A stretch of 64,000 nucleotides of DNA, from contig JAEELF010000001.1 of assembly GCA_016288815.1 (NCBI GenBank), positions 1 through 64,000 on the forward strand, given 5' to 3'. Below the pieces are notes generated by a model. The model saw only the letters and a list, made by a program, of their open reading frames with translations. It did no database searches and was not told where the DNA came from. This document shows positions 10,459 through 17,239 of the stretch, piece after piece. The DNA comes from Ruminococcus sp. (lineage in GTDB: Bacteria > Bacillota > Clostridia > Oscillospirales > Ruminococcaceae). The position numbers were made by a program, and so were the translations under genes. Within the stretch, counting starts at the first letter, position 1. Each line of letters begins with the position of its first letter.

Positions 10459-10534
10459 GGGGGTTTAGCTCAGCTGGGAGAGCATCTGCCTTACAAGCAG
10501 AGGGTCATAGGTTCGAGCCCTATAGTCCCCACCA
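10459..10534 (+). tRNA. tRNA-Val (anticodon TAC)
   Basis: Cloverleaf; loop CTTACAA; encoded CCA. Confidence 0.95.
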
Positions 10535-10541
10535 ATTTTTT

Positions 10542-10618
10542 GGCCCGGTAGTTCAGTTGGTTAGAACGCTAGCCTGTCACGCTAGAGGTCGTGAGTTCGA
10601 GCCTCATCCGGGTCGCCA
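10542..10618 (+). tRNA. tRNA-Asp (anticodon GTC)
   Basis: Cloverleaf; loop CTGTCAC; GGCCCGG/CCGGGTC acceptor; encoded CCA. Confidence 0.95.
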
Positions 10619-10666
10619 GCGCGGGCGGACGCAGGTAAGCGTCCGCAGCCAGCTATACCGAACAAT

Positions 10667-10742
10667 GCGGATTTAGCTCATCTGGTAGAGCGCCACCTTG
10701 CCAAGGTGGAGGTAGCGAGTTCGAGCCTCGTAATCCGCTCCA
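10667..10742 (+). tRNA. tRNA-Gly (anticodon GCC)
   Basis: Cloverleaf; loop TTGCCAA; GCGGATT/AATCCGC acceptor; encoded CCA. Confidence 0.95.
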
Positions 10743-10747
10743 TATGA

Positions 10748-10821
10748 GGCGCTATAGCCAAGTGGTAAGGCGTGGGACTGCACCTCCCTGATCCCCAGTT
10801 CAAATCTGGGTGGCGCCTCCA
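10748..10821 (+). tRNA. tRNA-Cys (anticodon GCA)
   Basis: Cloverleaf; GGCGCTA/TGGCGCC acceptor; loop CTGCACC; encoded CCA. Confidence 0.92.
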
Positions 10822-15054: not shown

Positions 15055-15843
15055 ATGACGACTTATCTTGTACCTGTACTTATCCTTGCCGGCTGCGGCA
15101 TACTCGCAGGCGTGCTGCTGACAGTCGCCGCGAAGGTGTTTTACGTCAAGGTCGATGAGAGGATAGAGAAGATATCCGCTTCTCTTCCGCAGGCGAACTG
15201 CGGTGCGTGCGGATATGCCGGCTGTGCGGACTACGCCTCCGCGATAATCAACAGCGGCGCCCCGACCAATCTCTGCCGTCCCGGCGGAGCGGACGCTGCC
15301 GGAAAAATAGCCGAAATACTCGGCGTTGCTGCCTCTGAGGTAGTCCCTATGGTTGCTGTAGTCCGCTGCAACGGCGACTGCAATGCGACAACTCCCGCAT
15401 TTGACTTCGACGGCGTGCAGTCCTGCAAGGCTGTCAAGCGTTTCTACGGCGGAAACGGCTCATGCAAGTACGGCTGTATCGGTCTCGGAGACTGTCTCGC
15501 AGCCTGTGACCGTGATGCTATCAAGCTTGAAAACGGCGTAGCCAAGGTGATACCGCTCCTTTGCGGAGCGTGCGGACAGTGCGTGGCAGTCTGCCCGAAT
15601 CAGCTCATCGAGATACGCCCGCTCAACAAGCACGTCGAGGTACTGTGCTCCTCCGCCGCGAACGGCAAGGAGACCAAGCTCAGCTGCAAGAACGGCTGTA
15701 TCGGCTGCAAGATCTGTGAGAAGAAGTGCCCCGAGGGCGCTATCACCGTCACCGACTTCCACGCCGCCGTCGACCACGACAAATGCACGAACTGCGGCAC
15801 CTGTATCGAGGCTTGTCCCGTCAAGGTGATACACCGCGTATAA
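15055..15843 (+). CDS. rnfB: Rnf complex subunit B (ferredoxin)
   Basis: ANCGACGYAGCADYA and several 4Fe-4S cysteine clusters. Confidence 0.95.
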   Translation: MTTYLVPVLILAGCGILAGVLLTVAAKVFYVKVDERIEKISASLPQANCGACGYAGCADYASAIINSGAPTNLCRPGGADAAGKIAEILGVAASEVVPMVAVVRCNGDCNATTPAFDFDGVQSCKAVKRFYGGNGSCKYGCIGLGDCLAACDRDAIKLENGVAKVIPLLCGACGQCVAVCPNQLIEIRPLNKHVEVLCSSAANGKETKLSCKNGCIGCKICEKKCPEGAITVTDFHAAVDHDKCTNCGTCIEACPVKVIHRV

Positions 15844-15851
15844 AAAGAAAT

Positions 15852-15884
15852 CTCCCCCGGAGCGGATCCGGGGGAGTTCCTTTT
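15852..15884. terminator. Bidirectional terminator between rnfB and 16-aa peptide gene
   Basis: CTCCCCCGG-agcggat-CCGGGGGAG with T-runs on both sides. Confidence 0.85.
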
Positions 15885-15933
15885 ATCTGCAGCAGCCGAA
15901 GAGCCTGCAGAGCATTGCAAAAAGATCACACAT
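15883..15933 (-). CDS. 16-aa Cys-rich small peptide MCDLFAMLCRLFGCCR (not in ORF track)
   Basis: ATG...TAA on minus strand, perfect GGAGG SD 9 nt upstream, dedicated promoter and terminator. Confidence 0.6.
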   Translation of the reverse strand: MCDLFAMLCRLFGCCR

Positions 15934-15975
15934 AACTAAGTACCTCCAAATATTTTTCCCTTTCGGGATAATTCT

Positions 15976-16004
15976 ATTATAGCAGAGGTATATAGTAAAA
16001 TCAA
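15976..16004 (-). promoter_or_regulatory. Promoter of 16-aa peptide gene
   Basis: TTGATT-17 nt-TATAAT on minus strand. Confidence 0.65.
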
Positions 16005-16041
16005 TGAATAATTGCTGGAAGAAATTCTGACAATTTCTTCA

Positions 16042-16515
16042 TCAGTTCAGTATACTGAATCCCACCGACAGATACGCCGCGAACAGTGCCCACACGAGAT
16101 AGGGGACATTGAGCCACGCTGCAATGGGTCTGACCTTCCTGAACGAGAGTATCATCGCCAGAACCAGAATGAACAGCAGTATCGCCACGAACATCGCCGC
16201 GCCGATGAGCCTGAACCGGAAGAATATCAGCGTCCACGAAAAGTTGACTGCGAGCTGCGTGACATACAGCCCGAGCGCCGTGCTGCGTTCTGTTGAGCTG
16301 TCATACGAAGCGTAGATGATGTACGCCGAAATGCCCATGAGCGCATATAGTATCGCCCATACCACGGGGAATACCGCGTGCGGCGGAGCAAGCGGAGGCT
16401 TCACGAGCTCGGAATAGAAGTCCCTGAAGCTCCCGGAAAGAAGTGCCGCAGCAGCCCCGACGAGCTCCGCGGCGACTATTGAAATGATAACGTCCGTTAA
16501 ACTGAATTTTTTCAT
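16042..16515 (-). CDS. TspO/MBR family protein
   Basis: VKPPLAPPHAVFPVVWAILYALMGISAYIIY; 5 TM. Confidence 0.92.
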   Translation of the reverse strand: MKKFSLTDVIISIVAAELVGAAAALLSGSFRDFYSELVKPPLAPPHAVFPVVWAILYALMGISAYIIYASYDSSTERSTALGLYVTQLAVNFSWTLIFFRFRLIGAAMFVAILLFILVLAMILSFRKVRPIAAWLNVPYLVWALFAAYLSVGFSILN

Positions 16516-16573: not shown

Positions 16574-17239
16574 TTACTTCAGCGGCGTGACATTACCGAA
16601 AACAGCGTAGAATTTGACGGGAATGTTCTTATCAATGTGGCATTTGCCGAAAAACCATTTTTTGTATTCGCAGGTCTTTATCATATCCTCGAAGAATGCG
16701 TGTACCTCGAGCCGCTCGAAGACATCTACCCCGAGGCAGTCCTTGAGAGACGCCGGCGGCTCATGCGTCACGACGTAATCGACCTTATTGCCGCAGCTGT
16801 CGAGGTTGCGGATAGCCTCGATTATCTCAGCGTGGGTGGGCTGCTCACGCTCCCACCATCGCTCGCCGTCGCGCCGGAAGTCATAATCCTGACTGTGACC
16901 GCCGCCGAAGGTGAAAATCCTTTTGTCCTCTATCTGGTAGACCTGCCCGCGCATGAGGTGGACGAGGTTTTTGCCTATTCTATGAATCTTTCCGCCCTTC
17001 CACTGCTCGACTGGGTAGCTCTCGAGGATATCGAAATTCTCGTGGCAGCCGTCGAGGAAGGCGATAGTGTAGCTCTTGGACTCGAGCTTTTTCAGCACAG
17101 CCTCCTCGCGCTTTGAGCCGTCCCAGATGAAGCCGAAGTCCCCGCAGACTATCAGGGTGTCGCCGCGCCTGAGCTTTTTTATTTCAGGAGCGTGGAATCT
17201 CCCGATATCACCGTGTGTATCGCCGGTCACATATATCAT
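16574..17239 (-). CDS. Metallophosphoesterase
   Basis: MIYVTGDTHGDIGRF, CGDFGFIWDG, DGCHENFD, VTHEPP motifs. Confidence 0.9.
   Translation of the reverse strand: MIYVTGDTHGDIGRFHAPEIKKLRRGDTLIVCGDFGFIWDGSKREEAVLKKLESKSYTIAFLDGCHENFDILESYPVEQWKGGKIHRIGKNLVHLMRGQVYQIEDKRIFTFGGGHSQDYDFRRDGERWWEREQPTHAEIIEAIRNLDSCGNKVDYVVTHEPPASLKDCLGVDVFERLEVHAFFEDMIKTCEYKKWFFGKCHIDKNIPVKFYAVFGNVTPLK

Follow-up and report, generated by a model that had tools for sequence, protein, structure and literature searches.

Comparative evidence for a free-standing 16-codon gene of a cysteine-rich micropeptide in Ruminococcus and for related genes in other members of its order and class

Introduction

The described systems closest to the locus reported here are the staphylococcal phenol-soluble modulins, SpoVM of Bacillus subtilis, the type I toxins of Gram-positive and enteric bacteria, and the cysteine leader peptides that act as attenuators. 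Phenol-soluble modulins are about 20-45 aa long, compared with 16-27 aa in the micropeptides described below, and the 16-aa member on which this analysis was based lies below the usual modulin range. SpoVM has 26 aa, does not carry the cysteine pattern seen here and belongs to a sporulation regulon. Polycysteine leader peptides have been described in mycobacteria (PMC9094748). Genes of 16 codons are expected to be skipped by annotation pipelines; microbiome smORF catalogues such as GMSC list ORFs from 30 nt, low enough for such peptides (PMC11364881). In the literature we found no description of this micropeptide family, its promoter box or its leader, the entries of the smORF catalogues themselves not being searchable.

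Results

A complete expression unit on the minus strand

The window, that is, the whole 64-kb stretch of Ruminococcus DNA analyzed here, had been proposed in a sequence-only reading to contain a complete minus-strand unit for a 16-residue peptide. Every part named in that reading was found in its place: a -35 and a -10 hexamer separated by a 17-nt spacer, a Shine-Dalgarno (SD) sequence 9 nt before an ATG at 15933-15931, 16 codons, a TAA and a terminator. Two parts that it did not mention were added by the present analysis, namely a box upstream of and including the -35 hexamer and a 5'-terminal hairpin. The features of the locus, with the evidence for each, are as follows.

16574-17239, minus strand: metallophosphoesterase gene, upstream of tspO (Pfam Metallophos, E 1e-6)
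16042-16515, minus strand: tspO, the upstream context gene (Pfam TspO_MBR, E 4e-43)
16001-16018, minus strand: upstream box that extends into the -35 hexamer, here CCAGCAATTATTCATTGA with consensus CCAnnATnTTTGCATTGA (column conservation in 44 near and 9 distant units)
15999-16004, minus strand: -35 hexamer TTGATT (sequence; TTGA conserved in relatives)
15976-15981, minus strand: -10 hexamer TATAAT (sequence)
15957-15968, minus strand: 5'-terminal RNA hairpin UCCC-GAAA-GGGA, at or adjoining the predicted transcription start (folding of leaders)
15943-15947, minus strand: SD sequence GGAGG (sequence; conserved in relatives)
15883-15933, minus strand: ORF MCDLFAMLCRLFGCCR, 16 codons plus TAA at 15885-15883 (codon selection, in-frame indels, homologues)
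15842-15876, minus strand: intrinsic terminator, a GC-rich hairpin with a T-run, abutting the rnfB stop codon at 15843 on the plus strand (sequence)

The terminator is probably bidirectional and common to the micropeptide gene and the convergent rnfB. No other ORF of 10-30 aa in the whole window is preceded by a GGAGG SD. Across 40 Markov-simulated windows, ORFs of this size and SD with at least three cysteines arose at 0.05 per window, and none of these also had a TATAAT. The simulations failed to reproduce the combination, which the sequence-only reading had called hard to explain as noise. Chance co-occurrence of the signals was rejected on these simulations together with the BLASTN recurrence and codon-level selection described below.

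Occurrence in Ruminococcus and beyond

When the 171-bp unit served as BLASTN query, 28 of the 60 Ruminococcus genomes gave matches (E<=1e-3), and nearly all of these matches had the same type of ORF; a weak second match in genome G018 (L030) was the coding sequence of another gene. In the aligned matches the conserved stretch began some 15 nt before the -35 hexamer and ran through the stop codon. A sequence profile detected the unit in 40/60 genomes, and in 26/33 of those of good quality; the sequences used to build the profile match it by construction, and the BLASTN result is independent of it. About one third of the genomes, including 7/33 of good quality, had no profile match: either the gene is not universal in the genus, or it is too diverged there for the profile model. 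Second matches were obtained in seven genomes. Some loci had two ORFs behind one promoter with no terminator between them, and others had two whole units.

A DNA pattern derived from the leader was then scanned over one genome per species (85,462 species) and returned 55 contigs, all but a handful with a true unit. Matches in Gelidibacter (L067), Tissierellia (L073) and L052 were rejected as chance. The carriers included R. flavefaciens FD-1, ATCC 19208, Y1 and YAD2003. Among profile matches, with each ORF read by eye, units were present in other genera of the same family (L089, L094-L098, L100, L102, L106, L108), in further families of that order (L116, L117, L119, L120, L123, L145) and, outside the order, once in another family of the class (L151). 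Only inspected ORFs were counted, as profile matches below about 30 bits were mostly background from unrelated genes and raw tallies of the profile search overstate the spread of the family. Distant members had the same gene layout with different peptides (MCNIFTRLCELLSYFCA, MCCNSWFQSLCAMLRNICGGCC, MNCKDLLELLRKCLGLC, MCNFDCGSLWQLLCLLFGRCC, MCNFDFASVLEILRQLCGFGC), which have little in common beyond an early cysteine, an amphipathic middle and a late cysteine. The homology of the most distant members is probable and rests on layout and box. By comparison of these loci, the predicted micropeptide family is spread through Ruminococcus and has relatives elsewhere in the order and class.

One contig labelled Alistipes senegalensis (L066, JAMPEF010000001.1) carried a Ruminococcus-type locus with phosphoesterase, tspO and two peptide ORFs; this MAG or its label is probably wrong.

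Selection on the ORF

Eighteen disjoint pairs of related genes were compared. Their differences were distributed 25:9:61 over the first, second and third codon positions (p = 2e-10), and pN/pS was 0.20 in the frame of the ORF but 1.5 and 5.5 in the two alternative frames. Third codon positions varied freely (pS 0.47), and length changes among relatives comprised whole codons. From the low in-frame pN/pS and the codon-position bias, the comparison therefore shows the 16-codon ORF to be under purifying selection as a predicted peptide. The sequence-only reading had looked to synonymous-biased substitutions as the mark of a gene; the bias was strong, and indels were in frame. The ATG, SD and cysteine positions were also kept, as were promoter and terminator, which bears out the view of the locus as a self-contained gene encoding a cysteine-rich peptide. 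On these comparisons we regard a real stand-alone peptide gene as nearly certain, and we infer that its ORF is translated.

Promoter box

The spacer measured 17 nt in 53/53 anchorable units (44 near and 9 distant), a count that is not fully unbiased, as a length of 17 was tried before any other and the pattern that gathered the units contained the -10 hexamer. The -10 TATAAT was invariant in both A1 and A2, again among units collected with TATAAT in the pattern. The box CCAnnATnTTTGCATTGA, 18 bp ending in the -35 hexamer, was kept in these units also where the remainder of the spacer varied. In the 60 genus genomes the box pattern occurred 36 times, vs 4 for its reversed form as control, and each inspected occurrence that had a correctly spaced TATAAT stood before a micropeptide gene. 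A general promoter of strongly expressed genes was rejected for the genus, where the inspected boxes at promoter spacing stood only before the micropeptide gene. The box is probably the binding site of a putative dedicated regulator.

Leader hairpin and terminator

A 5'-terminal hairpin was present in most of 71 leaders (mean folding z = -1.86). Relatives had different stem sequences (UUGUUCC/GGAACAA, UUGUC/GACAA, UCCGUUAC/GUAACGGA), the pattern expected where an RNA stem is under selection. In Gram-positive bacteria, hairpins at the 5' terminus protect mRNAs against decay from that end. Between the hairpin and the SD, the leader sequence varied among relatives. Downstream of the ORF a strong terminator was found in 37/52 loci, and its sequence was not conserved.

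The predicted transcript of about 130 nt, with its conserved 5' hairpin and terminator, could be taken for a small regulatory RNA with an incidental ORF, or for a dual-function RNA. We consider this improbable: selection in the ORF follows a codon pattern, whereas the hairpin-SD segment and the third positions vary, and an Rfam search of the window and 14 loci matched only tRNAs, with no family at the micropeptide loci.

Two loci in distant Clostridia showed a 5' hairpin and AAATA leader before other genes, both near position 1500: L147, with a box-like upstream sequence, before an apparent secreted-protein gene, and L103 before a PspA-like gene. The 5'-hairpin leader design may be used by other genes there.

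Neighboring genes

The unit lay directly downstream of tspO on the same strand in 31 loci, and a metallophosphoesterase gene stood directly upstream of the peptide, on the same strand, in six loci without tspO at that place. Outside the genus, units followed tmRNA (L037, L075) or tRNA operons (L047, L108, L117), on the same strand in these cases, or stood beside unrelated genes. A helper peptide of TspO, with its tetrapyrrole binding, or of the neighboring metallophosphoesterase would account for the 31 and six loci within the genus. This is an unlikely reading, as the unit has its own promoter and stands after or beside other genes outside the genus, and the linkage fits vertical inheritance of a single locus. 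The adjacency to tspO pointed out in the sequence-only reading is thus real within the genus, as is that to the metallophosphoesterase, but it says little about function, because the peptide persists without tspO.

Downstream neighbors varied, and convergent Rnf genes were found in about a quarter of the loci. An Rnf-linked function was therefore rejected, the adjacency being incidental, and the redox role that the Rnf neighbor had seemed to hint at is not supported. The predicted peptide by itself still makes a role at the membrane or in thiol chemistry plausible. Judged by gene order, the unit is self-sufficient and inherited in place, and is not part of a fixed operon.

The next gene was on the opposite strand in 35/46 loci, in the window the convergent rnfB. 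This bears on a cysteine-responsive leader peptide, in which ribosomes stalling at Cys codons by the terminator would control a downstream gene. Several Cys codons do stand immediately before the terminator, but gene orientation rules out an attenuator in most loci; moreover, conservation of the amino acids is not limited to the Cys codons, and one promoter can serve two copies. We consider such a leader peptide very improbable.

In the R. flavefaciens group (L034, L048, L059 and relatives), the gene after the peptide differed between genomes and the tspO side was constant; rearrangements therefore seem frequent just past the peptide terminator. In the window, four tRNA genes are clustered at 10459-10818 on the plus strand, upstream of the Rnf operon.

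The peptide

The family ORFs have 16-27 codons and the general form MC...LC.LF.CC, or more precisely MC, 0-2 residues, N(I/L)(F/W)xxLCxLF and, close to the end, C or CC. For 46 distinct peptides the helical hydrophobic moment exceeded that of composition-preserving shuffles with z = 13.5, a value inflated by the relatedness of the peptides though clear in direction; against the same shuffles there was no excess at beta-strand periodicities. Cysteine made up 22% of residues and net charge ranged from -1 to +2. Cysteines were often about seven residues apart, and in several members they occupied positions 2/9/16, a spacing of two helical turns. The peptide is predicted to be an amphipathic helix. 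Ten longer members had no match in Pfam or NCBIfam, the 16-aa window peptide being too short to scan, and the longer members tried had no match in the PDB.

These properties bring in two further explanations. The stronger, and the strongest rival overall, is a secreted, leaderless, membrane-active peptide resembling phenol-soluble modulins and serving as surfactant, antimicrobial or signal. A predicted leaderless amphipathic helix of 16-27 aa, a charge of about -1 to +2 and tandem copies under one promoter would fit, and strong stand-alone promoters would suit high output. The cysteine content of 22% is nevertheless unlike that of the modulins, and no transporter or quorum-sensing neighbor recurs outside the genus, leaving secretion a minority possibility. 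The second is a membrane peptide that inhibits its own cell, in the manner of a type I toxin or otherwise, and is restrained by an antisense RNA or by tight control of transcription. The tiny hydrophobic or amphipathic product, the strong SD and local tandem duplication would agree with it; however, the free turnover of third positions (pS 0.47) speaks against an overlapping antisense RNA, and the peptide is too short and polar for a typical membrane-spanning toxin. We regard this explanation as rather unlikely.

Discussion

The reading we prefer, and hold with about equal belief and doubt, is that of a leaderless, amphipathic thiol micropeptide that would work inside the cell under a regulator of its own, either at the inner membrane surface or through a partner protein. 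A regulator binding the box would set expression, and the 5' hairpin would shield the short mRNA from decay at its 5' end. The peptide, made without a leader, would fold as a short amphipathic helix with its cysteines along the helix, and would most likely act inside the cell. Its target would be the inner surface of the membrane or a single membrane or metal/thiol protein, with the cysteines binding metal or partner thiols. It would act alone, because no partner gene follows the unit outside the genus.

More tentatively, and with doubt outweighing belief, the family as a whole might consist of amphipathic helices with cysteines about two turns apart (2/9/16), forming membrane-bound peptides that can be bridged by metal ions or thiols and constituting a one-gene regulon under a single-target factor that recognizes CCAnnATnTTTGCATTGA, with a range beyond one order of gut Clostridia. 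If true, the family would amount to a membrane device of 16-27 residues that responds to metal or redox state and has a regulon to itself.

At this locus in abundant cellulolytic gut and rumen bacteria, a free-standing protein gene of very small size bears clear evidence of selection on its codons. It shows that conserved promoter and leader architecture can expose such genes where a protein search cannot, and function is directly testable with cultured strains and synthetic peptides of 16-20 residues.

Compared with known systems, the micropeptides resemble the staphylococcal phenol-soluble modulins (alpha type, delta-toxin) in being leaderless, about 20 residues long and predicted amphipathic alpha-helices, with several copies per short operon; the modulins, however, have no cysteines, no agr-like genes or dedicated exporter were seen at the micropeptide loci, and the ten longer members scanned had no profile match to modulin families. 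The type I toxins (Fst/TxpA, Ldr, Ibs) are likewise very small and hydrophobic, with a strong SD and frequent local duplication, whereas the micropeptides are rich in cysteine and show no sign of a conserved antisense RNA and no typical membrane-spanning segment. With the cysteine leader peptides they share a short ORF with consecutive Cys codons by a terminator, but they usually lack a downstream gene on the same strand and are conserved over the whole peptide. SpoVM is similar in being tiny and leaderless, and in having a single amphipathic helix for which a position along the membrane is proposed.
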